Below are positions 6,992 through 26,617 of a stretch of 26,625 nucleotides of DNA, piece after piece. Origin of the DNA: Bacteroidales bacterium (GTDB lineage: Bacteria; Bacteroidota; Bacteroidia; Bacteroidales; Azobacteroidaceae); NCBI GenBank assembly GCA_020860885.1, contig JAJBTS010000148.1, positions 1 through 26,625 of the forward strand. Reading direction: 5' to 3'. The position numbers and the translations under genes were made by a program. The stretch's first letter is position 1. Every line of letters starts with the position of its first letter. Below the pieces are notes generated by a model. The model was not told the origin of the DNA and made no database searches. It saw only the letters and a program-made list of their open reading frames with translations.

Positions 6992-9052
6992 TTATTCTAC
7001 TTTGAATTCCATTTTATTTTTATCCGTAATTTCATACAAATTCTTACCTGCAGGAACCGGAGGTTTAGGTAAGTTCATTGCAGCTATTGCAGCTTTCGTA
7101 GCAGCAGCTCCAGCTTCCGTAACAGTAACTGTTGCTTCGGCATAATCTTCAATTACAGCGGAAAACGGTGTATAGAAACCCCAATCCTGAAAGAATTCCG
7201 TGAAATCGTATCCTGAAATTTCGCATACCATTTTAGTAAAATCCAATTGATACTGTCCGTCTAGAGAGTTTCCGTTTGTTCCGGCTGTTAAATTAGGTGT
7301 TGTACGAACCCTTTCATAAATGTCTTTATAGAAATCGTCCTGACCCAATACATCGTGTATATAAAGTTTCAATTGCCAGAAAGGAACCAATTTACAGAAT
7401 ACATCTCCTTCTGGATCGTTATGAGGCTTTCCTGCTTTGATAATCGTCTCTATAGCCTTATTGTAACGATTGCCATAACCATCTATGAATTCATCATTCA
7501 GGCGGGAAGGCTGTCCCCAGGCAGTAGTTATATATTGTGAATGAATGTTGTTGGTAACCTCTGTCATTCCCAGCCATTTTAATCCCGGACGAGTCTGGTT
7601 GCAATGTCCTACCTCATGGGCAGGCCCCCAGGCAACACCTCCATCCCAACTATTAGTAAACTCTGCGGACATCAATTTATCATAATCCAGAATAGAATTC
7701 TGTGTTCCGTACTGATAACCTGTAAAGTAATCGGTAGCATACATGAAATCCTTCTCTCCGTATACAACCTGGAAATGCATACGTGTAGGGAAAACCTTAT
7801 TGTATTTAAATAATCCCATAAAGTCCATCTCCATACGCACCAGTTCATCGTAGGCTTTCAGTAATTCCAATCCTTTTTTCTTGGTATAACTGCGGAATGC
7901 GCTTGTTTCAAAATTCAGTAAACAATATTTTCCTTTCATATCGAAATGACTGAATGGGGCATTTGCAATCAATTTTTCCCAATCTTCCGCAGTGTGTTTT
8001 TCAATATCAAAATAGCCATTCACACCTCCCGAAAGAAAGTTTATTTTCACAGGCTTTTCTGTTCCCGTTGGGGTATAAAACATCACATATACCAATCCAT
8101 CATGGGGAGCCACTATCTTATTTATACCTTCTTCCACATAAATACTTGTTCCGTTGTTCCTGTCATCCGTTGTTTGAATAAATATAGTAGGATAATTAAC
8201 TTTATCTATTTCCGGAACCAAAACGATCAGATTTTCTCCTTTCGTCACATAAATCCCGGTAGGATTGTCTCTCTTTCCATACTTATTCGTTTTATTAATA
8301 GCAGAAGTAATTTCCGGTTGGATATAAGATTCATATTCCTGAATCCGGAATTCATCATCGTACTGTCCATAATAAATATCTTCGGCCAGTTTCCTGAATA
8401 TTTCCGGTTGAATAGCCTTGATATCATCAATGGTAACTCCCGGTTTTATCTCAGAGCATGATCCATCTGTGAAAATATCCTTGTAATTAAATGCCTGTGG
8501 ATTTCTTTTATAGAATTCCATTTCCGCACAACTGGCAAAACCGTTTCCATCTCCGGCTCCGGATTTTACACTAAACTTAATATATTCTACATTTTTCAAC
8601 GTTTCAGAAAACTGAACACCCGAAGCATCGTTAGAACCTTTAAAATCATAGCTTCCGTATTTAACTTCTTCTGCAGCACCCCTTAATTTATAAAAGACAT
8701 CTACTTCTTTAAAGTTACCATTTAATCCTGATGATCTGGGGCGGTAAACCAGGTAATCAATATCCTGATTTTCAGGAAATGCGTATTGCAAAGTGACTGG
8801 GAAAGTGGTTGCACCCCAGGAAGAATGATATATGGTAGACATGTTATCGTCGAAAGACTTTGCTATTTCTTCTCCCGATTGATAAGAAGATGCAAACGTT
8901 CCGTTTGCCTGTGGCTTAATTTTAATATTACCGGGTATTTCTTCCGTAAGAGAAGAAATGGTAGGCACAGCCGTCAGAAACTTTTCCTGTGCATTCAATG
9001 AAAAGACACACGACAGTAAAAGTGCACTTAATAATATATGTATTTTTTTCAT
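6992..9052 (-). CDS. Secreted M60-family metallopeptidase with N-terminal F5/8 type C (discoidin-like) domain
   Basis: A 686-aa zinc endopeptidase of the M60 (enhancin/mucin-degrading) family. The signature HExxHx(8,28)E is met by HEVGH at 479-483 with Glu498 after 14 residues; His479 and His483 should bind zinc and Glu480 catalyse. Residues 1-21 form a signal peptide ending SLNA. Residues about 40-182 look like a discoidin/F5-8C sugar-binding domain, about 250-345 an M60 N-terminal beta domain, and about 345-640 the catalytic region. A Cys15 inside the signal lacks a good lipobox, so I read it as a soluble or surface protein rather than a lipoprotein. Bacteroidetes M60 enzymes such as BT4244 act on O-glycosylated mucin-type proteins. 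It starts 18 nt after the lectin-like gene, so the two are co-transcribed. It lacks the sorting-type tail of its partner. Confidence 0.88.
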   Translation of the reverse strand: MKKIHILLSALLLSCVFSLNAQEKFLTAVPTISSLTEEIPGNIKIKPQANGTFASSYQSGEEIAKSFDDNMSTIYHSSWGATTFPVTLQYAFPENQDIDYLVYRPRSSGLNGNFKEVDVFYKLRGAAEEVKYGSYDFKGSNDASGVQFSETLKNVEYIKFSVKSGAGDGNGFASCAEMEFYKRNPQAFNYKDIFTDGSCSEIKPGVTIDDIKAIQPEIFRKLAEDIYYGQYDDEFRIQEYESYIQPEITSAINKTNKYGKRDNPTGIYVTKGENLIVLVPEIDKVNYPTIFIQTTDDRNNGTSIYVEEGINKIVAPHDGLVYVMFYTPTGTEKPVKINFLSGGVNGYFDIEKHTAEDWEKLIANAPFSHFDMKGKYCLLNFETSAFRSYTKKKGLELLKAYDELVRMEMDFMGLFKYNKVFPTRMHFQVVYGEKDFMYATDYFTGYQYGTQNSILDYDKLMSAEFTNSWDGGVAWGPAHEVGHCNQTRPGLKWLGMTEVTNNIHSQYITTAWGQPSRLNDEFIDGYGNRYNKAIETIIKAGKPHNDPEGDVFCKLVPFWQLKLYIHDVLGQDDFYKDIYERVRTTPNLTAGTNGNSLDGQYQLDFTKMVCEISGYDFTEFFQDWGFYTPFSAVIEDYAEATVTVTEAGAAATKAAIAAMNLPKPPVPAGKNLYEITDKNKMEFKVE

Positions 9053-9070
9053 GATTCTATATTGCTTACG

Positions 9071-10288
9071 TTATTTAACTATTACTTTGCGAGCTTCTCC
9101 ATTTATTACTACCAAATAAATTCCTGTAGGCAATGCAACATTTTTTCCCACTTGAGAACCATAGATATTCCATACAGTATAATCGTCAGTACCGAAAACG
9201 ATGATGCGTTTTTCTTCTGAAGTTACTCTGATTTCTTCGTTGATCACCGGATTAGTTATACCCACTTCACCTTCTGCCCATTCAAAAGTCCACGCGAAAC
9301 CTGTATTTTCACTTCTTCCTGCAAGATATGTTTCGGATTTCGTATCAGACGATGCGGCATTCAGATATCTCACGGCAGTTCCGTCTTTTCCGCGCAATTC
9401 AAACTGTTCCTTATTAATCGAAATAAATTGCCATCCATAACCTTCCTGCATATCGGTTGTATTTTGTACGTAAAAATATTTATCTAAGATAATTTCAGTT
9501 GAAATTATTTCGCGCGTAGCTTTATTCTGGATGTAATAATGTAGATTTTCTTCATCTTCTGTAACTTTAACAAATTTCCAATATTGATTAGGATTTGAAG
9601 CTTCTTTTGCGGCCAAATTAAACTTAATATACGGATCGGTAGGGTTAGCAATGGCTGTTACGCACTGATTTTCCATTCCCGGCTTAGCCGATTTAATAAA
9701 ATACCAAACCTCTTTATCATTGCTTTCGACAGGGAGAGAGTTATTAAAAGTTATAAACTGAAATTGAGCATTTAAGTCCGAATTTTTACTTGCAGCATCA
9801 AACATGATAATATAGTTGCGCCGGGAAGTAGAAATTCCCTGATATGCCAATATATTTCCGGCTGTTCCTTCTGCCGGTTCGGTTAGCATACGCATATTAT
9901 AATTGTTTCCATTTCTCTGAAAACGCCAGTTTGTAGAAGGAGAGTCATTCAATATTGCCACACGAAGTCTTAAAGAACTATCGTATTCCACATCTAATTT
10001 CTTTCCGGTAGCTTTATTTACAATCATTATGGAAGTACTTGTTACCTTTTCAAGCCTCCAAAGCTGTTTGTCAATAGAAGTCCGGTCTAAACCCGTATAC
10101 ATAGGACGACCGTAAACCCTGCCTTCTTCTGCAGTGAATACCCTATCCATCCGGTCGGTTGTTCCTATAACCTGAATATACTGCCATACAGGATTCTCGG
10201 CAGTACTATAAACAGGAGCCTGAGCATATATCTTCATCCCGAAGATAATACTCAAAATTAATACTACTAAAGTTTTTTTTGTTTTCAT
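9071..10288 (-). CDS. Secreted protein with two ricin-type trefoil-like regions and a C-terminal sorting-like domain
   Basis: 405 aa. Residues 1-22 are a signal peptide (ends KIYA). Two similar halves, about 32-180 and 192-338, each begin with a 'VWQYIQ' or 'VWYFIK' strand and contain repeated W-R/K-F and 'NKATGKKLD' / 'NKATREIIS' turns, typical of ricin B-like beta-trefoil modules that bind sugars. After a short linker, residues 351-405 resemble a type IX secretion (Por) type A sorting domain: IRVTSEEKRIIV, then YTVWNIYGSQV, LPTGIYLVVING and a basic end RKVIVK. No catalytic motif is visible, so the likely role is glycan binding for the co-transcribed M60 peptidase. The fold assignment rests on pattern, not alignment. 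A 76-nt spacer with a hairpin separates it from the SusD gene upstream. Confidence 0.7.
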   Translation of the reverse strand: MKTKKTLVVLILSIIFGMKIYAQAPVYSTAENPVWQYIQVIGTTDRMDRVFTAEEGRVYGRPMYTGLDRTSIDKQLWRLEKVTSTSIMIVNKATGKKLDVEYDSSLRLRVAILNDSPSTNWRFQRNGNNYNMRMLTEPAEGTAGNILAYQGISTSRRNYIIMFDAASKNSDLNAQFQFITFNNSLPVESNDKEVWYFIKSAKPGMENQCVTAIANPTDPYIKFNLAAKEASNPNQYWKFVKVTEDEENLHYYIQNKATREIISTEIILDKYFYVQNTTDMQEGYGWQFISINKEQFELRGKDGTAVRYLNAASSDTKSETYLAGRSENTGFAWTFEWAEGEVGITNPVINEEIRVTSEEKRIIVFGTDDYTVWNIYGSQVGKNVALPTGIYLVVINGEARKVIVK

Positions 10289-10307
10289 GATTTATGATTT
10301 AAGAACA

Positions 10308-10340
10308 AAAGATCAAGTGTATTTTATACACTTGATCTTT
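10308..10340 (-). terminator. Perfect 15-bp hairpin after the second SusD gene
   Basis: AAAGATCAAGTGTAT (10308-10322) and ATACACTTGATCTTT (10326-10340) are perfectly complementary around a TTT loop. It lies 24 nt after the SusD stop in the direction of transcription, and is followed on the - strand by a T-rich TTTTGTTCTT stretch. It looks like an intrinsic terminator or attenuator, or an RNA-processing/stability hairpin. The lectin start follows 19 nt later and no Bacteroidota TAnnTTTG promoter is visible in the 76-nt gap. The lectin and peptidase genes may therefore depend on partial read-through. Confidence 0.7.
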
Positions 10341-10364
10341 ATATAATAATCAGATTTATTGTTT

Positions 10365-12119
10365 TTATTCTTCTTCGGGTATCTCCGGATTTTCCGGTTC
10401 TGTTTGTTCTTCAATGAATTTATAAGGTATATACCAATTTTTCTCGTCTTGCAGTTTATCCCCTGCCGCCGGATTTTTTTGTCTAACCAATTTAGACAGT
10501 ATATTTACACCCTCTCCCACTTCATTACCTCTACGTTTAGCAAAACGCATCAGGTCATGGAAACGGTTACCTTCAAACGCTGTTTCCAAAGCGAGTTCTT
10601 CTATAATCAGTTTCTCAACATAATCCATTTTCTCAAGAGTTGTTTCCAGAGTTGCAGGGATATCATACAAAGTATCTTGTTCTGCACTACCGGAACCTCT
10701 CCTATGTACGCCCATGACTGAAGAATTCGGAAGTTGGTAAGAAAAGTCCAGATAAGCAGGACGAGCTCCCGTACCTAATTCTTCCGGATCCACATAATCC
10801 TGAAGGATTTGTTCTGATAACCCGCGTTTTAACACCATCATTGCCACTGTGGGTTTTCCTGCACGGTTTACTGCTTCCGCATAACGCAACCATAAAGTCG
10901 CATTCCTGTAAAGGAAAGCACAATTGTTATCTCCATATTTTGTTATTACCGGAATAGTATCTCCTGCCAGTGTATAATAATACGAATAAGAATTACTTCC
11001 ACAGGCATTCGTATAGATTCTTGAGAGATTTCCTCTTAAATCTCCCTGAAGATAATACAGGCTTCTGTCATTGTCGTTCCAATAAGCATTTCTGGATGAG
11101 GTCCAGTTATTCATTGCAACTTCAGATGGAGCTAATTCATAGGTAGCCCTTGAATTGGAAATAGCCAATGAATAATTCGTCAGGAATTGAATATTCATGG
11201 TAGTAGCATTCAATCCTGCAACATCCGAGATTACACTATATACCTGTCCGGTTAAATTACTAAACATATTTGAATAAGCACAATTAGCAGATGCATTTTC
11301 AGTAATCGCCGGATTCTGATCCCAGTTTGCCGAATACATAGACAAACTGTAAGACATCGTCGGATCAGGTGTCACTTCACCGGAAAATAATTTATGGTAA
11401 TGAGTAGCAGCATTCACATAATCTCCTTTCCATAAATACAGATCTCCTAATAAATAAGAAATAGGAATTAATAAATTGCTGACTTCGTATCCATTGATTC
11501 TACTTGTAATAGTATAATCAGGATATTGTAAATATTCGTAGGGAGTCAGATCTTTGATCAATCTATCCGCCAATCCGTAAATATCCACTACGGGATACTC
11601 CCTGTTCATATCCTCTAAAGTCAGAATAGGAGTTTCGATGTATGGAGCTTTTCCATAATTCAATACCAGCTGCATATATGTCCAGGCTCTTATTGCTTTA
11701 ATAGCAGCATACTCCATCAACATTACATCTTTACCACCTATCATAATTGAAGTGTCGACCTTACTTATATAGTAATTACAATTATTAATAACTGAGAAAT
11801 ATTCCTTAGATGAATAATAAGGGTTTTCACTGTTCGAATAATCGATATTATTTATTTCCAACAGATCACTTGTTGAAGTTTCCGTAACATCCATAAGGTC
11901 TGCTCTTAGCTCACCCAATACTATATATCGATCGCCGAGAGCTCTCATCTGGTTCAATATACCCAACATGGTATACAAGGTATCATTAGCCGAGCCCAGA
12001 TCATTATCTTCTGTTAAAACATACCGGTCTGTATCAGTATCTAACATATCGCTACAAGCCGAGAATAAAACTCCACAAGCAATAAGTACCGATCCTATTA
12101 TTTTAGTTATTTTTTTCAT
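10365..12119 (-). CDS. SusD/RagB family surface nutrient-binding lipoprotein (second pair)
   Basis: 584 aa, standard length for SusD-like lipoproteins that cap a SusC barrel and bind the imported glycan or peptide. The lipobox LFSAC places the lipid-modified Cys at 22, followed by SDMLDTD; acidic residues after the Cys are the known signal for outward display in Bacteroidota. The N-terminal half carries the helical TPR-like region (AAIKAIRAWTYMQLVLNYGKAPY), and the C-terminal RagB signature EELALETAFEGNRFHDLMRFAKR lies around residues 505-530. The tail is Glu/Pro-rich (ends NPEIPEEE). It follows the SusC stop by 30 nt, the usual SusC-SusD order. Ligand unknown; it is diverged from the other SusD here, so the two pairs need not share a substrate. 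Confidence 0.93.
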   Translation of the reverse strand: MKKITKIIGSVLIACGVLFSACSDMLDTDTDRYVLTEDNDLGSANDTLYTMLGILNQMRALGDRYIVLGELRADLMDVTETSTSDLLEINNIDYSNSENPYYSSKEYFSVINNCNYYISKVDTSIMIGGKDVMLMEYAAIKAIRAWTYMQLVLNYGKAPYIETPILTLEDMNREYPVVDIYGLADRLIKDLTPYEYLQYPDYTITSRINGYEVSNLLIPISYLLGDLYLWKGDYVNAATHYHKLFSGEVTPDPTMSYSLSMYSANWDQNPAITENASANCAYSNMFSNLTGQVYSVISDVAGLNATTMNIQFLTNYSLAISNSRATYELAPSEVAMNNWTSSRNAYWNDNDRSLYYLQGDLRGNLSRIYTNACGSNSYSYYYTLAGDTIPVITKYGDNNCAFLYRNATLWLRYAEAVNRAGKPTVAMMVLKRGLSEQILQDYVDPEELGTGARPAYLDFSYQLPNSSVMGVHRRGSGSAEQDTLYDIPATLETTLEKMDYVEKLIIEELALETAFEGNRFHDLMRFAKRRGNEVGEGVNILSKLVRQKNPAAGDKLQDEKNWYIPYKFIEEQTEPENPEIPEEE

Positions 12120-12149
12120 ACATGAATTTTTTGAAAATGAGAAAAATGA

Positions 12150-15100
12150 TTATAAGTTTATTTTTACTCCTACATGATAACTTCTACCTTGTGGAGTTAA
12201 ACCATTGTCAATACCTTGTAATAACACTGAATTGTTCATAGAAAATTCGGGATCGCTTCCGAGGTATTTAGTCCATGTCCATAAATTATTTGCAGAAGCC
12301 CATACGGTTATTCCTTGCAAGAAAGAAAGTCTGAATGGTATATCATACGATAAAGTCAGTGTTTTCAATCTTAAGTAAGAGCCATCTTCAATCCATCTGT
12401 CAGAGAAGACGTTGTTACCCATAGGATCTCCGTATACTGCTCTTGGAATAGAAGTTTCCTGTCCTGGAGTAGTCCATCTGTTTACAAGAGCTGTGGTCTG
12501 GTTGTAGAATGTAGAACCGCTTTCCAGTTGGGATCTTAAATAGTTATAAACATCATTACCATAAGAATATGTAAATAAAACATCTAAAGTAAAATGTTTG
12601 TATTTGAATTTACTTGCAATATTTCCGTAGAAATCAGGATTAGGATCACCAATAATTTGTTTATCGGAATCGTTTATCTTACCGTCATTATTCTTATCAA
12701 TAAATCTCACATCTCCACCGCCATAAGCTACACCATTAGCATTCACCAATGCGCGATAAGTTTCGCTTTGAGGATCGTAGTGTGCTCTTGAAGCCTCTTC
12801 AGTTGATTTATAAACACCATTTGTTTTATATCCATAGAATACTCCTAATGGTTGTCCTACTTCTGTTCTGATAGTACCATTTCCAGGAATTTCAGTTTCG
12901 TAACCTCCTGTAGGAAGAGACACAATCTCATTTTTATAATGTCCCATCGTAACTCCTAATTCCCATTGGAAATCTCTTAAATTAAGGATCTTACCATTTA
13001 CGCCTAATTCATAACCATTATTTTTCAATTCACCTTCGTTGCCCCAATAAAATTCAAATCCGGTAATATTCTTCAAGGGTTTTAACGTTAAAAGATTATC
13101 TGTTTTACTGCCGTATACATCAAAAGTAATACCCAATCTTTCATTGAACAAATGCGTATCTATACCTACATTCCATTTTTTTGTTGTTTCCCATTGAATG
13201 GTTTCATTTTGAATGTTACCCAATACCAATCCGATAGCATTCTGATAATATGTAGCAGACTTGAAGTAAGAACGTGCAGCATAAGTATCAATATCATCAT
13301 TACCGGTTATAGAATAGCTGGCTCTTAATTTCAGTAAGTTAACCGGAGTTACATTTTTCATGAATTCTTCGGAAGAAATCACCCATGCACCTGCAGCAGA
13401 CGGGAATATTCCCCATCTTGTTCCGAACATACTTACCCCATCTTTCGCTTCTTTACCAAAACGTGAAGAAGCATCTGCTGATGCAGTTAATGAAAGAATG
13501 TATTTATTTCTGTAATCATAAATTGCATTAGCATACCAACTCATGGATTTCCATCTGTCATCCGTACCGGTAACTGATTTATTCATAAGGTCACTGATAA
13601 GTACCTTAACATTGTCATTACCTGTATTGTATCCTTTAGGAAGCATAGAATTGTAAGAATCGGATGAAAATCTGAATCCGCCCAATAAAGATAACTGATG
13701 ACCTCCTTCAAACTCCAGTTTCCAATCCAAACGAGTATCGCTATATACTGAATTCTGTCTTTGAGTCATGTCACGAACTTCATTATAGGGTTGTGCCACT
13801 CCATTAATAATCAGAGGCGCGATACCTGCTTTAGGAATAAAGAAAGACTCTTTCATACGGCTCATGGTATAACCAAATATAGTACCGAATCTAATATTAT
13901 TTGTAAATTGGTAATAAGGGTTAACACGCATATTGAAGGTTGTTCTGGCAGCAGTACCCATTGCTTCTTCTACGATCGAAACCGGATTAGAAACGGCGTT
14001 TGCCGAAGTTGGGTCTAACGTATCGTGAAAAGATAATTTTGGAGAAAACTGATCTGAATTATTTACATATCTGTGGGATGCTAAAATAGGAGCTTTAATC
14101 AAGCTGATAAAACCCGGAGCTGTTTTGGAATCAACACCATCATCACTCAGGTTACGTGTAATCCTGGCAATAGAAATATCCACATTTGTATACATTTTTG
14201 AAAACATCCGGATGTCGGCATTGAAACGGGCATTAAATCTTTCCATATCCGTATCTTCCACAGTACCTTCCGTTTTCACATAACCCATAGACAAGTTATA
14301 CAAAGCAACTTCATCACCACCACTTACCGATAAACCGATATTTTGATAGAGTCCATCCCTGTAAACCTCGTCTGTCCATTTCGTATTATTTTGGTAATCC
14401 CTGTAATTTACGATATCCGGATCTAAAAAAGGAAATAACTGATTGGTAAGCTGAGATTGGAACTGATTCGATTCATTAACCTGAAGCCATCCCTGAGCCT
14501 GATTAGACGCATAAATTCTATATTGATCCGCATTCATCATTTTGGGGAATGAAGGCTTTTGATTTAATCCTATAGAAAGATCCGCCGTAATCCGGGTTGT
14601 CATATCCCGTCCGCGTTTGGTAGTAATAAGAATAACGCCATTAGCCGCCTTACTTCCGTAAATTGAATTTCCATCTTTGATTACGGTTACATCTTCGATA
14701 TCATTTACGTCTATCGATTCAAAAGGATTGGCAAAGTAACCCTGATGTATAGACGTACTGTTCAACTGGTGATTCCAGATTACTCCATCAATAACAAACA
14801 AAGGTTGAGCATTTGCATTTAAGGAGTTTAATCCTCTGATAAACATAGCAGCTCCCATTCCCGGAACTCCTGAACGGGTAATTGTTCTTACATCAGCACC
14901 TAACTTAGACTGAATTTCCGTATCAATAGTTATAGCAGTTGATTTATCAAAATCGGTAGCAATATCCACGGGATTGACAGTAATAGTTCTTCTTTTTTTC
15001 TGACCGGGTAATAGTTCCAAAGTCTCGTATCCTGTTGTAAATACACCGGAATATAATTCAGCATCTACCGTTTGTCTTCCTTGCAAAGGAACTTCACGCA

Positions 15101-17071: not shown

Positions 17072-18934
17072 TTAATCACGGCCTTCTTGCTCTAAATAAC
17101 TTGAAGGAACAAATTCTACAAAATCTAAATGGAATTCAGAAGTAGTATTATCTTCTACCGATTTAATTCTAAGGATATGAGTACCTGCTGTCTGGAATTC
17201 TTCAGTAGTAACAATTCGTCTCAGAGACTGATTGTTTTGCCTCAAAGGTTGAGAAGAACTTTTCAATAATACCGTAGAAGGACCTTTCATATATCCTCTG
17301 TTACGCATCATTTTATCGTTTTCCACACCGTTATCCTGAGTATCGGCATCAGCGATCCATCCTATATTTGCATGTGTTGCATTGATACGCATATCCAATG
17401 GAATACCGCAAGGCTTACCATCTAAAAACATTTGAGCAACCCCTCTTCTCGGATTGGCCGTATAAGCTATCCGGAACTCCCATCTCCCCGGAGGTAACGG
17501 CGGAGTTTTTAAAGAGAAATCATATTTTTTAGCAAAAAGAAGCTCATCGCCCTGCATATCTCCCCACCCGGAAGACCCGATATACTGGCATTGCGTACCT
17601 TCCGTGTAAATCAAATTCTTCAGGAAATCCTGCGGAATAATATAACCGGTAAAATCTCCACGCAATTTATTGGTAGCAAATTCGGAAAAGAGGCTGGAAG
17701 CGTCCATTCTTAAGCGTTTATTCAGAACATTCGTTTCTACATCTTTATAAGTTAAGAAGTTATTAATTTCCAAAAACATAACATTTGCAACATCTGCAAC
17801 ATTGCCTGTTATTTTAATTTCCGGATCATTATCTTCGGGATACATACTTTTATTAATAATATTTCCTGTCTGAACCTCGATAAGAGAGTTCGGCATCATC
17901 ATTTCAATGTATTCCCTGATTATAGTATTCGGAAGAAAATATCCATCCCAATCAGCCTTAATAAATTCATTTGTATCCATCATTCTATCCATCATATGGT
18001 AGGAAACAAATCTATTTAATGCATTATTACGGTCGGTATAATCTTGTTTTATCCGGCTTTCGTCACTCGGATCCAAAGGAAACAATACATAGTAAATTTC
18101 TTCTGCTTTAGTAATCAGATCCTGCAAATTATTAATTCCGACATTTGCTAATGTACTATTACTTTCCATAAAGACGGTATATCCGTATTTACAAAATGGA
18201 GGTGTTTCCATTAAAGAACGGTTTCCTGAACCCTTTTCATCAATTATTTTACCAACATACTGATAGTTAGGGTTATCAGTCAGATAAAGAGAATCGATCA
18301 ATCCGGTAACTTTCATCGCATCATAGAATATGGAAAAATCTTCCAGAGGAGCCAATACTTCATCAATAACCAAAGTAGGAGCTTCCAATACCTGGTCTAT
18401 GGTATGAATGATTCCATTATGAACTTTATCGTCCCATTTAATAATTTTTGCAGATCCGTTAACCGTAAAGCGGTTACCACCTTCAGTTCCTATTCTTAAG
18501 AATATTTCATTCATATTCGGAGTTGAAATTGATCCGATAGGAAAATTGATTGTTTCTATAGGATCCGCTCCTATTCTACCTGAAATAATATGATTCTGTA
18601 CTATATCTACTATCATAGAATCAGTCAATGTTTCAAAGGTTACCCCTTCTTTTTGATAGTAATTTCTAACAGCTTCATTAGATGGTACAAAGCATGTATA
18701 TACACCGTATGCATTCAGTAGATCGTACATACCCGCAGCTTTAATCAAATTTGTAAATTCGGAATAAAGAGCAGTATCGTTCTCCAGAAAAGTAGCGATT
18801 TGAACCGACTCTACTGTTAGTATAGCATTATCCACATCATCCTGACAGGAATGGAACCCTAAAGAAGCAATTAATACGCTTAGCAGGACTACCTTGCTAA
18901 TGGTATAATTTATTATATTATTCATTTTTTTCAT
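17072..18934 (-). CDS. Fasciclin (FAS1) domain lipoprotein with C-terminal ligand-binding-like region
   Basis: 620 aa. The lipidated residue is probably Cys30 (SLGFHSC, then QDDVD, acidic). FAS1 repeat 1, about 42-185, has YTCFVPSNEAV (79-89) and NGIIHTIDQVL (173-183). A second, longer and weaker repeat about 195-400 has GYTVFMESNSTL (251-262) and VMFLEINNFL (385-394). Residues about 405-612 look like a beta-sandwich: GRWEFRIAYTANPRRGVAQM, a 'FLDGKPCGIPLDM' turn and a final 'THILRIKSVEDN...HLDFVEFVP', similar in shape to carbohydrate-binding modules. The start may be Met1 or Met4 (18925). It lies between a SusD gene (24 nt upstream) and the next FAS1 gene (22 nt downstream), inside the operon. 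No enzyme motif was seen; a surface binding role is inferred. Confidence 0.8.
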   Translation of the reverse strand: MKKMNNIINYTISKVVLLSVLIASLGFHSCQDDVDNAILTVESVQIATFLENDTALYSEFTNLIKAAGMYDLLNAYGVYTCFVPSNEAVRNYYQKEGVTFETLTDSMIVDIVQNHIISGRIGADPIETINFPIGSISTPNMNEIFLRIGTEGGNRFTVNGSAKIIKWDDKVHNGIIHTIDQVLEAPTLVIDEVLAPLEDFSIFYDAMKVTGLIDSLYLTDNPNYQYVGKIIDEKGSGNRSLMETPPFCKYGYTVFMESNSTLANVGINNLQDLITKAEEIYYVLFPLDPSDESRIKQDYTDRNNALNRFVSYHMMDRMMDTNEFIKADWDGYFLPNTIIREYIEMMMPNSLIEVQTGNIINKSMYPEDNDPEIKITGNVADVANVMFLEINNFLTYKDVETNVLNKRLRMDASSLFSEFATNKLRGDFTGYIIPQDFLKNLIYTEGTQCQYIGSSGWGDMQGDELLFAKKYDFSLKTPPLPPGRWEFRIAYTANPRRGVAQMFLDGKPCGIPLDMRINATHANIGWIADADTQDNGVENDKMMRNRGYMKGPSTVLLKSSSQPLRQNNQSLRRIVTTEEFQTAGTHILRIKSVEDNTTSEFHLDFVEFVPSSYLEQEGRD

Positions 18935-18958
18935 TCTCTTTGATTTTTAGGAATATAA

Positions 18959-20692
18959 TTATTCTTCAGAATCATTATTATCGTTATTATCGTTATCATC
19001 GATGCCGGAACCTCCTCCTTCTTGTAAATCATTGATGTAATAAGGATTTTGCACCAACGATGGATTTACAACAAGTTCATCCCTATGAATCGGCATATAA
19101 AAAGCATTTATATCGGATAATTTGCTAATAATAATATCTGAATTAAAAGTATAATTTCTGGAAAGATAATCACTTAGAATAGTTCTTGTAGTTCCTTCCC
19201 TTCTTGCGAAACGAATTAAATCAAACCATCTCTTACCTTCAAACAGGAATTCGCGTTGTCTTTCCAACAGAACCAGTTTCCTCATTTCCTGTTTTGAATT
19301 ATAAGAAGCGAAGGCCAGTCCTTCCTGAACGGTAGGATTTGCACGTTTGTATATTCTGTTCACCAAATCAAAAGCTTCCCTGAGGTTCTCATCTCCCAGT
19401 TCAACCAAAGCTTCCGCTTTCATAAGGATTACATCGGGTAAACGATAGAATATCCAGTTTGCCGGAGTGGTACGTGATGTAAATTCAGGCATTAAGTTTG
19501 CTCCGGTTCCCGAAATTCTTTGTCCGACATATTTAAGAATTCTGGATGGTTCATTCGTATTTTGCGGATCAGAGTAATAAAAGTCCTTTTGTCTTAAATC
19601 TGTTCCGGTAGAATTAAAGACACTCCAGTCATTCAAAGTGGATACATTTAACCATCTTGTTGATTCGGAGCTACCATACAGGTCTTTTACTGCATACCTT
19701 CCATCATTATTCGTTGTAAACTGTAATTCAAAAATACTTTCCGCTGAATTCCCGGATCGGTCATTTATAGTATACATCGGGCTAAATATAAACATATAGC
19801 TGTCAGAAGCTCCGGTTCCGCTGTACCTGTTATTAGAAATCAGATACAATTCGGCTCCTGTAAATGTAGACTGTTGTTCCTGCGAATTGTATTGTTCTTC
19901 CGTAATTTCATTTGCCAATACTTTGTCGCACATTTCAATACATTCTGAGTATCTTCCCAACCACAGATAAATATCTGCGAGAAGAGTCCTTACCGAATTT
20001 TTATTGAATCTTCCTTTTGTATCTGAAGCGTAGAAATTATTATAAATATAATTACCACGTGAAATTAAAGCACTTCTTTCCGCATCCAATAAATCGTCAA
20101 CAAGTAAAGTTAAAATAGAATCGCCATCCATTTTCGGCACATCAAATTTCTGAGTATCGTCAATAAAAGGCTCCGTAACGAAAGGAACGTCTTTATATAT
20201 ACGAACCAGATAGAAATAAACCAGAGCCCTGATGGCTTTAGCTTCCGCTAAATGGATTCCGAGTCTACCATTGGTATAATCCGGGTCTAAGTCCTGTACG
20301 CCGGGAGCATATCTGATAACAGAGTTGCAATAATTAATAACTCTGTAAAAGTCATACCAGGAAGCATACTTATTATCTGTTTGAATAGTAACATTCAAAA
20401 TATCCTCCAAAGAATTATTATCGCCAGGTTCGTTAGGACCTTTTGTTACATTATCTGAACGTACTTCACTTCCAATGATCATGCATTGCATAAAACCTTC
20501 TTTAGTCATAGCTTCGTAGCAAGCTAAAACCATAGATTCAACGTCATCGTTTGTTTGCCAGAAATCTTCCATTACCATTGTATCCAAGGGCTTCGGATCC
20601 AACCAATCCGTACAGGAAGAGAATGTTATTGAGAACAATATCCCTAATAATATAATTTTATTTTTCATAAATCTATTCATTAATTTATCCAT
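18959..20692 (-). CDS. SusD/RagB family surface nutrient-binding lipoprotein (first pair)
   Basis: 577 aa counted from the first ATG. The lipobox TFSSC puts the lipidated Cys at 27, followed by TDWLDPKP, the classic SusD start. SusD helices follow (HLAEAKAIRALVYFYLVRIYKDVPFV), and the RagB signature LLERQREFLFEGKRWFDLIRFARREG is near residues 475-500. The C-terminus is an unusual Gly then Asp/Asn-rich tail (GGGSGIDDNDNN...). Three in-frame ATGs precede the hydrophobic stretch. The third (20668) would give an 18-residue signal peptide and a 26-nt gap to the SusC stop, close to the 18-30-nt gaps typical of this operon, so it may be the true start; the first ATG leaves only 2 nt. It should act as the lid of the SusC encoded just before it. 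Confidence 0.93.
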   Translation of the reverse strand: MDKLMNRFMKNKIILLGILFSITFSSCTDWLDPKPLDTMVMEDFWQTNDDVESMVLACYEAMTKEGFMQCMIIGSEVRSDNVTKGPNEPGDNNSLEDILNVTIQTDNKYASWYDFYRVINYCNSVIRYAPGVQDLDPDYTNGRLGIHLAEAKAIRALVYFYLVRIYKDVPFVTEPFIDDTQKFDVPKMDGDSILTLLVDDLLDAERSALISRGNYIYNNFYASDTKGRFNKNSVRTLLADIYLWLGRYSECIEMCDKVLANEITEEQYNSQEQQSTFTGAELYLISNNRYSGTGASDSYMFIFSPMYTINDRSGNSAESIFELQFTTNNDGRYAVKDLYGSSESTRWLNVSTLNDWSVFNSTGTDLRQKDFYYSDPQNTNEPSRILKYVGQRISGTGANLMPEFTSRTTPANWIFYRLPDVILMKAEALVELGDENLREAFDLVNRIYKRANPTVQEGLAFASYNSKQEMRKLVLLERQREFLFEGKRWFDLIRFARREGTTRTILSDYLSRNYTFNSDIIISKLSDINAFYMPIHRDELVVNPSLVQNPYYINDLQEGGGSGIDDNDNNDNNDSEE

Positions 20693-20694
20693 AA

Positions 20695-23600
20695 TTAAAA
20701 TCCTACAGTAATACCAAGAGTGAAGTCTTTGGTACGGGGAGTAATAGCAGTATCTTCGCTAATTCCCAAACCATTGTAACTAACCTCGGGATCCACACCC
20801 TGATATTTGGTAAAACAGAATAAATTATTTACAGTAAGATAAAAACTTAATTGTCTCATACCATATTTTTTAAGAGAGGCTGAAGGAACCGCATAATTTA
20901 CCTGAATATATTTCAGACGGAAGAAAGAACCGTCTTCTACGTAACGATCACTAGGCAATGAGTTATAACCATAATTATAAAGAGCGCGGGGAATAGGACG
21001 ATCTTCGCCTTCTTTTCTCCATCTCCAGTTTACGGCTATACTTTGATTGTCGAAGTTATACATACTTTCAGCATCCATTCTTGCTTTGTTTATGATCTTG
21101 TTTCCATAACGGAAGTTAGCAAACAATGTAGCAGACAGTTGTTTCCAACGGGCTGTGATACCGATACCCCCATTCAATGTTGGGTTAGAATTACCTAAGT
21201 AAACAATATCCAGTTCGTCAATAGTTCCATCATGATTGATATCTTCATAAATAGCATCTCCTGCCTGGAATTCATAACGGCCATTGTTACCTAAATCATA
21301 AAAGTCGAAATACATAGGTAATGGTTGTCCGTTAGCATCCAGTAACGGTTGATTGTTTGCGTCTCTGGCAATAGGAGCTGTTCCTAACTGATAATTCTTT
21401 GCGCTATATTGGTAAACTCCTTTGTAACGGAAACCGTAAATAGAACCGAAAGATTTATCTTCTTGTAAACGTTGCAGATAAGCTGCCTTATTACCATAAG
21501 TAAAATCTTTATTATAAGAATCCAGGATATCCTGATCCAGAGAAATAATAGTATTAACCGAGTTAGCCAAATTGAATTTGAAATCGAAAGTTACATTTCC
21601 AACCTTAACAAAGCGGTTTGCCTGGAAGTTAACTTCCCAACCATCGTTGTCCATAGTTCCTCCATTTCTGTAAGGCAAGTTATCGTATCCGGTGGAAGTA
21701 GGGATTTTAGTATCTTTATGCAACATATCCTGAGTACGTTGATGGTACAGGTTTACATCTAAAACATACGTATAATCTAATAAAGCAAGGTCAAATCCTA
21801 AGTTATAACCGATTGTTTTCTCCCATTTCAGGTTAGACAAACGAATATTTTCCGGATAAATTACAGGATAATCGTTGTAACTTCCTGAAGCTTTATAACG
21901 GCTGAAATGCAAATAATCACTTGTAGGAGAGTTACCTGTAATACCCCAGCTTGGACGAATGGATAATATATCCAGATAATCTTTAGCAAAATCCATAAAT
22001 GGTTCATCAGAAATATTCCATCTCACAGAAACACCCGGGAAGTTACCGTATTTATTTGACTTACCGAATTTAGTTGAACCGTCACATCTGTAAGTAAGGT
22101 CAAGTATATATTTACTCTTGTATGCGTAGTGCATACGTCCGATCATACCCAAAGAACGAGACTGTCCTATTCCACTCTTTATCTCTTTCAGGTAACCATC
22201 AGCCGTTGGGTCTGTAATGCTGCTGGATGGGAATCCGTAAGATACCACGTTCTGGCTGTTAGAACTACCTGATGTTGTTTGCAAAGAAGCAAAAGCCATG
22301 AAACTATGGTCTTCGTTTTCCATTTTAGGTTGCCATGTAAGACTGTTTTCAGACTGGATACCAAAGTTTTCATTATCAAGATTGGTACTTCTGTTGATAA
22401 ACTCATTATCCCATGGTTGAGCAGAAACTTCTTTCGGTAAGTATTTACGTGTTTTTTCGTTTCTCATTTGGAAAGAAACCCATACATTATATTGTAATGT
22501 AGATTTTTCAGGATCCAGCAGGTCATAACGCAAACGCAATACAGGTTGAACATTGTAAGACTTCAAATTCTGGGTTGCCAGATTTGCCAAAGCTACCGGG
22601 TTCTTGTAATTTTTCTGAGAACCGAGGTCTGCGCTTTCCAACATGTTATAATAAGTATCCAAATCCTGTCCTGTTCTTCTATCCTTATTATAGATTGCCA
22701 GGTTAGGCATCTTTTTATAAGCGATATCCAATATACTATAACCGTTATGGTCGCCCGTATCTGTCCAGTTACGATCGTTATCGGTATAAGTAAACATAAA
22801 TTCCGAAGTAAAACGGATACGGTTAGATACGTAATAATCTAAGTCCATACGAGTGGTAAACCTGTCTAAACCTTGACCAAGGATTGTACCTCTTTCAGTC
22901 ATATAACCACCGGCTACACGGAAATTAGCTTTTTCTCCCCCTCCGGATATTACCAGATAATGGTCGTGAGTATATCCTGTCTGGATTACATTATCTCTCC
23001 AGTCTGTATTATTATTGTAGTAACCGAATTCAGAAAATTCAGGATCATAATTTAACTCCCTTAATGACAAATAATTTCTTGTAGATGAGCTGTTATTATT
23101 CAAATAAGCGTTAAATAAAGCCTGTTTCATCATCATCGTATAGTCGTCACCACTAAGCATTTTCAAGCCTTTGGGTTGTTTCTTACCAGAGAATTTATAG
23201 GTATAATTGATACGCGTCGGACCGCTGACCCCTTTTTTAGTGGTGATCATCAATACCCCGTTAGCACCTCTCGAACCCCATACTGCAGTAGAAGCAGCAT
23301 CTTTCAATACAGTAACTTCCAGGATATCATCCGGGTTAACACTTAACAGGTCTGCAAACTGATCTTCATTAGCAGTCGCTAAGTCGATTCCGCTTTCACT
23401 AAGGTTAATATCTTCACGGGGAATACCGTTCATTACAATCAAAGGTTCTACGTTAGCATTGATAGAAGATGTACCGCGAATACGCATGGAAGCACCTCTA
23501 CCTAAGTCTCCGCTACCTACGATATCCAATCCGGCAATATGTCCCTGAAGAGCATCATCGATAGAAGTAATTTGCATACCTTCCAACTCTTTAGTGCTCA

Positions 23601-24015
23601 TTTTTTGCATAGCAAATGGAACTTCCCTTTCAGGAATCTGGAATGTACCGTCCGAAACCGTTCTTTTTTGTACGATTTCAACTTCCGGTAACACATTGTC
23701 TTCTTTTAAGACAAATGTAATATTACGTTGAGATCCAATATTTACTGTTTCTTGTTTAAATCCAAGATATGTAACTCTTAAACGGTTCTGAGCGCTAAAT
23801 AATTTCAAAGAAAACTCTCCGTTCATATCGGTCAGGGTATGACCCACAACACGATCCGTCCGGTCTATCTCCACCACCTGGGCTAAAATCAATTCTTCTC
23901 CGGTCTCGGAAACAACTTTTCCCCGTATCATATCTCCAGCTCCGGATTGTGCAAATACTGATTGGCAAAAAGTAAGACATCCAATCAGAAGGATATATAT
24001 AAATTTATTCTTCAT
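20695..24015 (-). CDS. SusC/RagA family TonB-dependent outer-membrane transporter (first pair)
   Basis: 1106 aa. The signal peptide ends VFAQ (residue 23). A carboxypeptidase-regulatory-like domain spans about 29-105 (IRGKVVSETGEELILAQVV; TDMNGEFSLKL). The plug, about 130-262, has MRIRGTSSINANVEPLIVMNG and TVLKDAASTAVWGSRGANGVLMITTKKG. The barrel contains EDINHDGTIDELD, the usual SusC loop, and ends in TLGITVGF with a terminal aromatic residue. As in the other SusC, no STN domain is present. The TonB-box region reads VLPEVEIVQKRTV (108-120) and lacks the usual VVVGYGTQ. The gene starts 1 nt after the four-repeat FAS1 gene, so translation is probably coupled. It is clearly a different paralogue from the SusC at 12150, not a recent duplicate. 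Confidence 0.95.
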   Translation of the reverse strand: MKNKFIYILLIGCLTFCQSVFAQSGAGDMIRGKVVSETGEELILAQVVEIDRTDRVVGHTLTDMNGEFSLKLFSAQNRLRVTYLGFKQETVNIGSQRNITFVLKEDNVLPEVEIVQKRTVSDGTFQIPEREVPFAMQKMSTKELEGMQITSIDDALQGHIAGLDIVGSGDLGRGASMRIRGTSSINANVEPLIVMNGIPREDINLSESGIDLATANEDQFADLLSVNPDDILEVTVLKDAASTAVWGSRGANGVLMITTKKGVSGPTRINYTYKFSGKKQPKGLKMLSGDDYTMMMKQALFNAYLNNNSSSTRNYLSLRELNYDPEFSEFGYYNNNTDWRDNVIQTGYTHDHYLVISGGGEKANFRVAGGYMTERGTILGQGLDRFTTRMDLDYYVSNRIRFTSEFMFTYTDNDRNWTDTGDHNGYSILDIAYKKMPNLAIYNKDRRTGQDLDTYYNMLESADLGSQKNYKNPVALANLATQNLKSYNVQPVLRLRYDLLDPEKSTLQYNVWVSFQMRNEKTRKYLPKEVSAQPWDNEFINRSTNLDNENFGIQSENSLTWQPKMENEDHSFMAFASLQTTSGSSNSQNVVSYGFPSSSITDPTADGYLKEIKSGIGQSRSLGMIGRMHYAYKSKYILDLTYRCDGSTKFGKSNKYGNFPGVSVRWNISDEPFMDFAKDYLDILSIRPSWGITGNSPTSDYLHFSRYKASGSYNDYPVIYPENIRLSNLKWEKTIGYNLGFDLALLDYTYVLDVNLYHQRTQDMLHKDTKIPTSTGYDNLPYRNGGTMDNDGWEVNFQANRFVKVGNVTFDFKFNLANSVNTIISLDQDILDSYNKDFTYGNKAAYLQRLQEDKSFGSIYGFRYKGVYQYSAKNYQLGTAPIARDANNQPLLDANGQPLPMYFDFYDLGNNGRYEFQAGDAIYEDINHDGTIDELDIVYLGNSNPTLNGGIGITARWKQLSATLFANFRYGNKIINKARMDAESMYNFDNQSIAVNWRWRKEGEDRPIPRALYNYGYNSLPSDRYVEDGSFFRLKYIQVNYAVPSASLKKYGMRQLSFYLTVNNLFCFTKYQGVDPEVSYNGLGISEDTAITPRTKDFTLGITVGF

Positions 24016-24016
24016 T

Positions 24017-26617
24017 TTAATTCACTTTATTATAATCCAATACATTATCAATCAAATGCATTACAGCAAAAGAAGAAGTCGCGATGGTCATAGAAGAACC
24101 CGTGCCTTCCAGTCTATAATCTCTTGCCATAATATTATATAAATTACCGGCTTTAACAACAGAAGCTGATCGTGCCGCGAAATTAGGATTAGTTACAGAG
24201 AATTGAGGATTTTTTTCTGCAAACAATCCAAGCTCACCATTATTTTCTACAACCCTGATTTTCCTGAACTTTCTATCCGCCGGGTTTAGAGTGGCTGTTT
24301 CAAAATAGGAAGAAACTTTATTGGTAACATATACCGAATTATCCTGAAAATGGTAACGAATAAATTCATACAATTTCTGAGCTTCCTGTCCTTGTTGCGT
24401 CGGATCAATGATAGCGTCTATTTCTTCCCAGGTTTTAATAACTCCGTCACTTATAGCTTTACGTATTGCTGCATTTGTCGGAATATATACGGTATAATGA
24501 TACGTATTGAAGAAACTTACTACTGTAGCATTATTTTCCTGAATGAAAACCGGACCGGCATATTCTACTATACCTGAAGAAGATTCGGCCAGATAAGTTT
24601 TCGCAGCAGCACAAAGATTATAGAACTCTTCGAACTCTTCCGTATCCTGTAATATCTGGTAAACAGATTTCAATGCGGGCTGCAGAACCTGATCAGTAAA
24701 ATAAGTATTTCCATTGGCCTGGAAGTACGTATCAATAGCATTCCCCATTTGATTGCCATTTTCTATATTTGCACCGCCTTGCACCTCTAATCTTGTATTA
24801 TTCGGATCTGCATCCAAATTGATAACATTGGCTTTAAGGGTTGCTCTTCCTTTCGTTTGATAAAAATATTTTCCTTTTTCCAGTTCACCTACAATAATAT
24901 GATTATCTAATAAATCCAGTAAGCGGTTCTGAATCTGAGTAGTAGTCGTAATAAGTCTTAAGCTGTCGCCATAAGTAGGGCTTTCCTCGTCTCCATCATA
25001 AACCGTAGCCTGCACGTTGGCTGTAGTTTCGTTATAGGAGAAACTCCAGAATTCCTTTTTGTTTGAATTGGTAAGAACCACCGGATCCACATAACCATCC
25101 GTCATTTTTCCTGACGCATCGAATGTTCCTTTAAAAACGTTATCTACAGGTACAAAGAAACTGAATAAGTTTCCTTCTTCCATAGATAATAAGTATAGAT
25201 TAAATTCGAGTTCATCAATAGCCCACTGGAATATTTTTGTTTCGTCACTCAAAGATACGGGAGCCGATACTGCAACATATTCGGTAGGAGCATACACTTT
25301 ATCAACAACATACACAGCACCATTGCTACATATTTCCGCATGGGTTACATCGTCTTTATCTACACCCATATTCGTACCCATTTTATCTTCAAGATTTCCG
25401 AATTTACTGGGTAAAGTAAGAAGGAAAGAAGGTTTCATCTGGTGTGCAATTAAGTCCAGCAAAACATTATCAGGAACATTCTCCCATGTACCATAGCGTT
25501 CTTTCAGGATTCTTCCGTCGCCACGTTCAAAATATTCTTCCAAGGCAGCATCCGTAGGAACAAACATGGCAGCCATGTTTGCTTCCATGCTTTGTCCGGG
25601 AGACGAATAATTATTTTGTCCCGGATCGAAAGGCAATTTTAAAACAGGTCTTCCTTCCGGATCTGTCATTTCAGGTAAAGAAGGATCTGAGCGTTCAATG
25701 AAAAATCTTTTGTAATAAAGAGTATCTCCTCTGAAATTAGGATTTAAGTCTATATATGCATAGGTATTTGTCATATCGGGATAAGGAGCGCAAAAACGTT
25801 CCAGAAAACTGTTAAACAGTTGGGTTTCCGGGTTTTTACGAATATATTCCGCCATATTATCACGAGGGATCAATACTTCTTCCAATACATTTACATATCC
25901 GTTTTTACAGAAAAGATCGGGTTGTGTGATTTTTATATCAAATATAAAAGCATCACCCTGGCTTCTTGTTTTTCCTGTCAAACGGTAAAAGTCATCATCC
26001 GTTATAGCCTTTGAATCCATGAAAGATTGAATGAAGTAAGCCAACGTAGGAATTGAATTATCTTTCATAAGATAAATTCCTTTTTCCCTGTGATAGTTAC
26101 TCCAATAATTTGTTTTAGGAAGGTTGTCTCCTTTTTCAAAAGGAATAGTATCAAACAACCCCATACTGGACGTTTTTCTCATTACTTCACCCGGAATAGC
26201 AGGACTATTTCCTTGCCCGGGCATACTTGATAACATATCCAGAGAATACGCATCATCGATTAAACTTGAAAATAAAATCATCCGTCTTTGGGCTTCTGTC
26301 AAATCCTCGAAGCGGTTTACTCCCCAGGTGTTGTTTGAGGCAAAAAAAGCAGCAAAAGCTTCATCGTTTGCGACAAAAGCTGTTTTACTACCTGTTTTTT
26401 TCAACACATCGGAATAATAACCACCCTGAATAGCTACAGAATCAGCAATTTGGGTAAATAACTTATAATTACCTTCTTCCGTAAGGTAATCATAAATACT
26501 GGGAGCCAGTATACTTCTTGGGGGCTCCTCATCGTTGTAAGGATAATCATCTTTACAAGCCGTGAACAACAACGTGTTCAATAATAAAAAGGATGCGATA
26601 AATAAATACCTGAGCAT
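24017..26617 (-). CDS. Large lipoprotein with four fasciclin (FAS1) repeats
   Basis: 866 aa. A lipobox (LLFTAC) places the lipidated Cys at 21, followed by KDDYPYNDEE, a strongly acidic surface-export signal. Four FAS1-like units can be traced. Their H1 boxes are TAFVANDEAFAAF (79-91), AAMFVPTDAALEEYF (349-363), FSFFVPVDNVF (485-495) and YTVYIPTNAAIRKAI (708-722). Matching H2 boxes are near 239-249, 432-442, 636-645 and 848-860. Units of 180-220 residues exceed the usual ~140, so each carries insertions. The start has only 8 bases of upstream sequence in the window, but the signal peptide begins right there, so the gene is probably complete. It is the first operon gene visible; its promoter lies outside. 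Likely a surface adhesin or binding component of the adjoining SusC/SusD importer. Confidence 0.82.
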   Translation of the reverse strand: MLRYLFIASFLLLNTLLFTACKDDYPYNDEEPPRSILAPSIYDYLTEEGNYKLFTQIADSVAIQGGYYSDVLKKTGSKTAFVANDEAFAAFFASNNTWGVNRFEDLTEAQRRMILFSSLIDDAYSLDMLSSMPGQGNSPAIPGEVMRKTSSMGLFDTIPFEKGDNLPKTNYWSNYHREKGIYLMKDNSIPTLAYFIQSFMDSKAITDDDFYRLTGKTRSQGDAFIFDIKITQPDLFCKNGYVNVLEEVLIPRDNMAEYIRKNPETQLFNSFLERFCAPYPDMTNTYAYIDLNPNFRGDTLYYKRFFIERSDPSLPEMTDPEGRPVLKLPFDPGQNNYSSPGQSMEANMAAMFVPTDAALEEYFERGDGRILKERYGTWENVPDNVLLDLIAHQMKPSFLLTLPSKFGNLEDKMGTNMGVDKDDVTHAEICSNGAVYVVDKVYAPTEYVAVSAPVSLSDETKIFQWAIDELEFNLYLLSMEEGNLFSFFVPVDNVFKGTFDASGKMTDGYVDPVVLTNSNKKEFWSFSYNETTANVQATVYDGDEESPTYGDSLRLITTTTQIQNRLLDLLDNHIIVGELEKGKYFYQTKGRATLKANVINLDADPNNTRLEVQGGANIENGNQMGNAIDTYFQANGNTYFTDQVLQPALKSVYQILQDTEEFEEFYNLCAAAKTYLAESSSGIVEYAGPVFIQENNATVVSFFNTYHYTVYIPTNAAIRKAISDGVIKTWEEIDAIIDPTQQGQEAQKLYEFIRYHFQDNSVYVTNKVSSYFETATLNPADRKFRKIRVVENNGELGLFAEKNPQFSVTNPNFAARSASVVKAGNLYNIMARDYRLEGTGSSMTIATSSFAVMHLIDNVLDYNKVN

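Follow-up and report, generated by a model that had tools for sequence, protein, structure and literature searches.

A double SusCD-FAS1 cassette joined to a lectin-M60 peptidase module in Azobacteroidaceae suggests a candidate system for glycoprotein foraging

Introduction

The BT4240-50 mucin polysaccharide utilization locus (PUL) of Bacteroides thetaiotaomicron combines a surface M60 O-glycopeptidase that carries a CBM32 domain with SusCD and a surface glycan-binding protein, and import of glycopeptides has been proposed for it (PMC11992087). Bacteroides caccae has 16 M60 genes, 15 of them with PULs (PMC13355702). M60-like proteins with Ricin B lectin domains are listed in four entries by Nakjang 2012 (PMC3267712). 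Here we describe a related locus in a stretch of 26,625 nucleotides from a Bacteroidales bacterium of the family Azobacteroidaceae. This stretch, called the window below, is the entire contig JAJBTS010000148.1 (C45 in our numbering) of an assembly of 438 contigs and 3.0 Mb. Nine open reading frames (ORFs) at 6992..26617, all on the - strand, encode two SusC/SusD pairs, three FAS1 proteins, a lectin-like protein that we call TREF and an M60 peptidase. On balance, we favor the view that this row serves at the cell surface to feed on mucin-type O-glycoproteins and arose when an old uptake cassette of seven genes was joined to a cutting module of two.

Results

From F866 to M60, successive genes are separated by 1, 2, 24, 22, 22, 30, 76 and 18 nt (the names F866, F620, F541, TREF, SusC1/SusD1 and SusC2/SusD2 were coined for the present analysis; G denotes family genomes, with G000 the window's genome, C contigs, and L homologous loci or regions). 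Pfam and NCBIfam confirmed the gene content given in the original prediction, namely two SusC/SusD pairs, three FAS1 proteins, a trefoil protein and an M60 peptidase with a discoidin-like domain, and the two adjacent pairs of susC/susD homologs are those expected of a SusCD-type uptake locus. The TonB-linked outer-membrane transporters SusC1 (20695..24015, -) and SusC2 (12150..15401, -) scored 681.8 and 645.2 bits with TIGR04056 (NCBIfam SusC/RagA cut-off 368 bits) and are 25% identical to each other, in agreement with the earlier description of the pairs as unlike. SusD1 (18959..20692, -; SusD_RagB 97.2 bits) and SusD2 (10365..12119, -; 36.8 bits), the latter encoded by the last cassette gene, are the predicted surface lipoprotein lids of SusC1 and SusC2, respectively.

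The three remaining cassette proteins were assigned to FAS1 by both profile and fold, with Pfam Fasciclin detected in each. For F866 (866 aa; 24017..26617, -), a multi-FAS1 surface lipoprotein encoded by the first cassette gene, the summed Fasciclin score passes while no single repeat does, and the FAS1-like stretches near residues 43-126, 222-256, 352-448 and 699-780 are each weak singly. Its relatives (best 120 of 517) are 37-63% identical and include proteins of Candidatus Symbiothrix and Candidatus Ordinivivax. F541 (15424..17049, -; Fasciclin 38.2 bits) matches periostin by profile (E 4.5e-38), and its C-terminal part has no clear PDB relative by sequence. In F620 (17072..18934, -), two FAS1 domains are followed by a C-terminal beta-sandwich that appears carbohydrate-binding module (CBM)-like when modeled, which lends support to the suggestion that FAS1 proteins stand in for the usual surface glycan-binding proteins. 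By the lipobox rule, the N-termini of SusD1, SusD2, F866, F620 and F541 are lipoprotein-like, as read by eye rather than with a predictor, and acidic residues follow the lipoprotein cysteine in the three FAS1 proteins (TACKDD, SCKDDD and SCQDD). A tandem duplicate of F620 was seen in G011:C4:47910-51662 and in G044:C105:6997-10831, where the copies lie between SusD1 and F541.

A search with F620 found 89 relatives, of which 80 were kept; these make up 78 distinct loci, with L049 almost identical to L050. This sample is biased because loci were kept by short exact peptides. The loci are spread across Bacteroidales, with representatives in Prevotella, Paraprevotella, Bacteroides nordii, Paludibacter and Marinilabiliaceae, and single genomes such as Paludibacter 47-17 and Paraprevotella xylaniphila carry several cassettes. 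The exact order F866-SusC1-SusD1-F620-F541-SusC2-SusD2 was present in 43 of the 78 loci and 22 more were consistent with it up to the contig end, leaving three rearranged loci and ten with F620 alone. For this last class only the strand of F620 was considered, and L008 and L013 carry an F866-like gene on the opposite one. For the 40 cassettes in which all seven ORFs are whole (39 loci and the window), pairwise distances of all seven genes correlated at 0.89-0.95. The value for SusC1 against SusC2, 0.89, was reached by none of 2000 permutations, and SusC1 was the most conserved gene, with a mean identity of 0.55. Given that shared descent alone yields such correlations, they document joint inheritance, not contact. 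The seven-gene cassette is inherited as a unit.

We also examined what adjoins the cassette, choosing 123 neighboring ORFs, of which 43 of 47 upstream and 63 of 75 downstream were scanned and one more was dropped. On either strand, the upstream ORFs included GHcc (10), GH95 (9), GH92 (5), GH43 (2) and GH31 (1) families of glycoside hydrolases (GH), and those downstream FG-GAP (16), GH95 (5), DUF2264 (2) and GH43 (2); these tallies are per family, not per protein, a few of the ORFs adjoin lone F620 genes, and some are perhaps shadow frames of the simple gene caller. In our reading, the cassette supplies uptake, one half of a family of PULs that have been coupled to many substrates. Among the literature matches listed for FAS1 or fasciclin together with SusC/SusD, none described such a cassette; one paper on a mussel symbiont, in the portion available, mentions a single FAS1 gene apart from its SusCD pairs. 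Two side observations concern these loci. A conserved FG-GAP beta-propeller protein follows SusD2 in Prevotella- and Paraprevotella-like genomes (L026, L031, L044, L046, L048, L055, L068, L071, L072, L074 and L076), and that of L048 has no PDB relative by sequence. The cassette of L073 lies in a record titled Roseburia sp. (a metagenome-assembled genome), most likely a binning or naming error because the genes are Bacteroidales-like.

The M60 protein (6992..9052, -), a gluzincin metallopeptidase, has a signal peptide and no sorting tail. It belongs to family M60 by score (135.3 bits against a PF13402 cut-off of 25.8) and by its HEVGH..E motif, and Pfam places an F5/8-type-C (CBM32) domain in the same ORF (37.7 bits). 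The closest solved M60 domains are those of B. caccae BcM60K and BcM60C (E ~1e-95), next come BcM60F and BcM60B, and 7yx8 and 5kd5/5kd8, which are AMUC_0627 and BT4244, respectively (PMC13355702), are farther away. The alignment retains the catalytic HEVGH and TEVTNN as well as the F of FMYAT, and the helix region is equally long. The Phe of FMYAT lies at the edge of the glycan pocket in BcM60K, where tolerance of branched core-2 glycans goes along with a short catalytic helix (PMC13355702). Since the window M60 aligns gap-free in the helix region, it would be expected to take Tn, core-1 and perhaps core-2 substrates, and its sequence makes it highly likely to be an O-glycopeptidase. The CBM32 domain is closest to 7blg, a B. 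thetaiotaomicron CBM32 (E 8e-36), with YHSSW, PRSSG, NGNF and GFASCAE kept, and appears to retain the stretches that bear Gal-type binding residues in relatives; those residues of BT4244 are given in PMC11992087. Nine M60 matches covering the peptidase were detected in the window's genome. The N-termini of 13 M60 rows (one a fusion and one cut), read by eye, look like plain signal peptides ending in AQ.

The gene directly before M60, TREF (9071..10288, -; RicinB_lectin_2 37.7 bits), encodes a secreted beta-trefoil protein of the RicinB type whose C-terminal tail resembles those of the type IX secretion system (T9SS). TREF matches occurred in 14 of 45 family genomes. The counts that follow cover 23 TREF-like and 29 M60 genes (three of the latter cut at the 3´ end) from the window and selected regions, not all matches. 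TREF lay directly before M60 on the same strand, with a gap of -4 to 33 nt, for 19 of the 29 M60 genes. Seen from the lectin side, M60 directly follows 19 of the 23 TREF genes and another enzyme follows two (C311, C388); of the remaining two, the C79 gene reaches the end of its contig and the second lectin of G012 lacks both tail and M60. Other matches, on contigs without an M60 match (for example G026 C35, G035 C77/C96, G011 C15/C35, G044 C85/C210 and G014 C181), fall outside the TREF count, as does one more pair in G014, cut by the contig end, outside the 19. Five TREF-M60 pairs are present in the window's genome (C45, C322, C7, C134 and C382), where two further TREF genes precede a tail-less DUF4874/DUF4832 protein and a metallophosphoesterase. 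In two natural fusions, G000:C150 (L163, cut at the 5´ end) and G006:C3 (L156), trefoil, CBM32, M60 and tail are found in one chain.

The TREF tail is divergent, as Pfam's tail models stay below their cut-offs on it; the NCBIfam scan likewise gave no tail match. A T9SS-only profile, built on three tails that Pfam or NCBIfam names as T9SS and free of TREF sequences, matched 12 of the 23 TREF proteins (ten at 1e-3 or better; window TREF 1.2e-5), both fusions and none of the 29 M60 proteins (26 with a whole C-terminus). The only matches among 218 other ORFs were three that were members of the profile. With TREF tails included, the profile matched 22 of the 23 TREF proteins and still no M60, and hhalign gave 98.2% probability for the TREF tail (with one fusion tail on the TREF side) against the T9SS sorting-domain profile. 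The window's genome encodes the T9SS protein GldL, the only component searched (205 bits against a cut-off of 68.3).

To follow the joining of cassette and module, we used a family sample of 45 genomes, with thresholds of E<=1e-100 for F620 and E<=1e-150 for M60. Each was found in 13 genomes, with 12 holding both, one F620 only and one M60 only (Fisher 6e-9, uncorrected for kinship). In 8 of these 12 genomes, cassette genes and TREF-M60 lay on one contig, which makes a chance neighborhood unlikely. They are directly joined in G000, G011, G012 and (cut) G014, and one or two large ORFs stand between them in G007, G015, G030 and G044; the intervening ORFs scanned (G007, one of two in G015, and G030) contain Ig-like repeats and trefoil stretches. 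Contig ends prevent reading of the joining in G006, G029 and G031. Among the genomes surveyed, the joined arrangement was seen only in the cockroach/termite-gut family of the window. Large proteins that are secreted and contain HYDIN/ASH-like Ig repeats, trefoil stretches or both were also noted at L143:5716-9528, L151:16358-18619, L005:18682-21075, L154:3977-7006 and L179:3786-7562, located between cassette and TREF, after the cassette or beside a TREF-M60 pair.

An RNA hairpin with a 15-bp stem (10308..10340, -) separates the cassette from TREF-M60 and could be an attenuator or weak terminator. Hairpins of unlike sequence precede TREF in relatives, with z scores against shuffles of -5.9 for the window, -4.5 to -5.0 for G011, G007 and G030, and -0.95 for the G012 stretch tested; G015 and G044 also have a stable fold at this position, as seen by folding only. 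We take the hairpin as an attenuator, with a full terminator and separate promoter also possible.

The original prediction stressed that the locus holds no glycoside hydrolase. No carbohydrate-active enzyme (CAZyme) was indeed found within 6992-26617, but this claim is weak because the contig ends 8 bases before the start of F866 and the upstream side cannot be read. For homologous loci the picture was mixed as well: glycoside hydrolases often adjoin the cassette in the wider order, an outcome that the original prediction had named as counting against it, while the readable flanks of G011 and G012 showed no polysaccharide hydrolase among the neighbors scanned, only a lytic transglycosylase near G011. 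Elsewhere in the family, GH106 is directly upstream in G007 and GH2 is downstream in one other locus. In the window's genome, three GH109_C matches above cut-off were found at places other than the window (0 in 14 control genomes), and the TREF-M60 pair of C382 adjoins a protein in which a GH31 C-terminal domain is combined with a CBM32-type one. GH109, two GH2 pieces, two DUF4874/DUF4832 proteins, TREF and GH36 are clustered at G000:C311 (L171), which is likely an O-glycan processing locus of this genome. Enzymes missing from the window are thus present elsewhere in the genome.

Among full cassettes with a named source, the nearest belongs to Bacteroidales bacterium OttesenSCG-928-M11 (L006), a single-cell genome from a cockroach. 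An M11 cell of the cockroach hindgut has been placed in Azobacteroidaceae, and both known genera of the family have members that live with termite gut protists (PMC10266427). The window thus appears to come from an insect-gut relative of cockroach and termite symbionts, and an insect gut replaces the "host or dietary" source first proposed for the glycoprotein. Insect mucin is degraded by enhancins, which are related to M60 (PMC3267712), and mucin of the insect gut is therefore a reasonable candidate substrate. CBM32 has been tied mainly to vertebrate hosts and CBM5/12 to invertebrate hosts (PMC3267712); the CBM32 of the window M60 argues against so simple a host rule.

The other genes of the window seem not to belong to the locus proper. 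A MITE-like (miniature inverted-repeat transposable element-like) palindrome of 158 bp follows M60 at 6808-6965 and has 42 genome matches including itself, mostly 76-86% identical over ~125 bp. Beyond it lies an acyltransferase gene on the same strand. Genes for LicD, glycosyltransferase and alpha-amylase (GH13-type, 4111-5565) come farther away, on the opposite strand. Beside LicD, at 86-1450, an IspD-like cytidylyltransferase is fused with a short-chain dehydrogenase, presumably with a role in a CDP-polyol-type surface sugar.

Discussion

If the row serves to forage on mucin-type O-glycoproteins, T9SS-exported TREF and the CBM32 of M60 would hold a Gal/GalNAc-bearing glycoprotein, and the FAS1 lipoproteins, or at a minimum F620 given its CBM-like domain, would hold it at the mouths of the SusCD pairs. 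M60, judging from its sequence and close proven relatives, would cleave the peptide chain beside an O-GalNAc glycan. From what is known of SusCD systems and from the BT4240-50 model, the two SusCD pairs would then import the glycopeptides, perhaps as two classes, after which the GH109-type alpha-N-acetylgalactosaminidases and other hydrolases coded elsewhere may strip the sugars. The hairpin before TREF probably keeps TREF-M60 expression below that of the transporters. The likely substrates are mucin-like proteins from the lining of the insect gut or glycoproteins on the surface of gut protists. The parts of this scheme differ in strength. Import of glycan-bearing matter by the cassette is quite likely, and cassette and TREF-M60 probably act on one substrate in the window, while the chances that the imported cargo is a glycopeptide are evenly balanced. 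The earlier proposal of surface binding, cutting and import of glycoprotein is partly supported: with M60 nearest to proven O-glycopeptidases, its CBM32 nearest to one from B. thetaiotaomicron, and the linkage in 8 of 12 genomes, it appears right in outline for the window's family, though not as a general rule for the cassette. The two-part build, with TREF-M60 as a separate repeated module, the T9SS-like tail and the fusions were absent from it.

Several observations weigh against a dedicated glycoprotein system. In genomes outside the family, genes such as GH95, GH92 and GHcc accompany the cassette and M60 does not adjoin it, and within flanks of up to 10 kb around the 78 loci M60 was found only at L006, a member of the window's family. 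In 392 other genomes of the order, 16 have F620 and 16 a close M60 with an overlap of 0, although the chance expectation was only 0.65. Even within the family, cassette and TREF-M60 are on different contigs in G019 and the linked cassette of G011 lacks F620. TREF is not directly before M60 in 10 of the 29 cases, three of which are cut at the contig end on that side. The window M60 lacks a sorting tail and a clear lipobox (LLSC is inside the signal peptide), so that its surface location is only presumed. The mechanism as a whole is drawn from sequence and comparison.

Two broader accounts were rejected. The nine genes are not one old unit; only seven are, and from locus comparisons and the order-wide zero overlap TREF-M60 looks joined later. 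Nor is M60 a general companion of the cassette across the order, given this zero overlap, and 31 other PF13402 genomes likewise shared none with the 16 F620 genomes (few candidates were scored per genome in the order-wide F620, M60 and PF13402 searches). PF13402 was detected in 15 of 47 cassette-picked genomes (the scan was given 48 of the 78 loci) against 32 of 393 in the order sample (26 above cut-off). We give this higher rate no weight because 5 of the 15 are in the window's family (L005, L006, L030, L054 and L080) and the samples differ.

The glycoside hydrolases next to the cassette elsewhere (GHcc, GH95, GH92, GH43 and GH31) raise another explanation, in which the cassette is an ordinary importer of poly- or oligosaccharide with its hydrolases beyond the contig end and TREF-M60 is a separate transcription unit, either a chance neighbor or a loosener of matrix that frees the glycan. 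The contig end 8 bases upstream of F866, GH106 directly upstream of the cassette in G007 and the hairpin between SusD2 and TREF, which in G011 has a T run, all fit this arrangement. The presence of TREF-M60 on the cassette contig in 8 of 12 genomes, together with the flanks of G011 and G012 that lack polysaccharide hydrolases among the genes scanned, speaks against it, and we consider it rather unlikely. Less probable still is a periplasmic M60 that trims large O-glycoprotein fragments after they have been bound and imported, with TREF alone at the surface. This would agree with the plain signal peptides and with the lack of a T9SS tail in all 29 M60 proteins (three cut there), but in both fusions M60 shares one chain with a T9SS-like tail, and the homolog BT4244 is on the cell surface (PMC11992087).

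The locus might instead serve mainly for attachment, with FAS1 and lectin proteins gluing the bacterium to a protist or the gut lining and M60 clearing or remodeling that surface. FAS1 domains are adhesion modules in animals, F866-type FAS1 homologs come from Candidatus Symbiothrix and Ordinivivax, which live on protists, and relatives encode large secreted Ig/trefoil proteins between SusD2 and TREF (G007, G015 and G030 scanned). Life with protists is also reported for Symbiothrix in PMC10266427. The tight co-inheritance of two SusCD pairs with the FAS1 genes points to uptake, however, and attachment as the main role seems very improbable.

For the glycoprotein-foraging system that we favor, the tails allow a further, tentative idea. 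TREF might be a secretion escort that carries the sole T9SS tail, binds the tail-less enzyme encoded by the next gene and takes the complex across the outer membrane. Its partners would mostly be M60, but also the DUF4832 protein and the metallophosphoesterase, and in the window the pair would be plugged into the FAS1/double-SusCD importer; we regard the escort idea as rather unlikely. Each module has a single tail, located on the lectin in split pairs and at the chain end in fusions, which fits an escort and is also expected if the lectin alone is a surface protein. Were the escort idea correct, T9SS cargo would include proteins without a sorting domain, with the lectin setting both address and substrate, and the tail-on-partner pattern offers a clean test of whether T9SS moves complexes.

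More broadly, the locus would represent a second type of glycoprotein-foraging system in Bacteroidota, here from insect guts and outside the usual PUL models of the human gut, and would put a name to a widespread unit of two SusCD pairs and three FAS1 proteins that is open to structural work. It also cautions against calling a locus CAZyme-free from a single contig. Among known systems, RagAB and BT2263-64, which are SusCD pairs that take peptide, are comparable to the window by description rather than by sequence; we know of no FAS1 or M60 there. The M60-like proteins with Ricin B lectin domains listed in PMC3267712 carry both domains in one protein, whereas in the family of the window lectin and peptidase are mostly encoded separately and it is the lectin that has the secretion tail. 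The B. caccae M60 set shares with the window's genome a high number of M60 copies and linkage to PULs, but neither "ricin" nor "T9SS" appears in the main text on it (PMC13355702). No description of a tailed lectin partner (M60 with T9SS or lectin, or T9SS piggyback) was found among the literature matches listed. The BT4240-50 locus has one SusCD pair where the window has two, its M60, BT4244, is a lipoprotein with BACON, unlike that of the window, and neither "fasciclin" nor "FAS1" is used in the text of PMC11992087. It also has GH2 and GH109 in the locus (PMC11992087), both absent among the window genes scanned (the upstream side being unreadable), while GH109 lies elsewhere in the window's genome. 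M60 beside SusCD is thus already known in Bacteroides; the apparently new elements are the FAS1/double-SusCD unit and the lectin partner with its tail.

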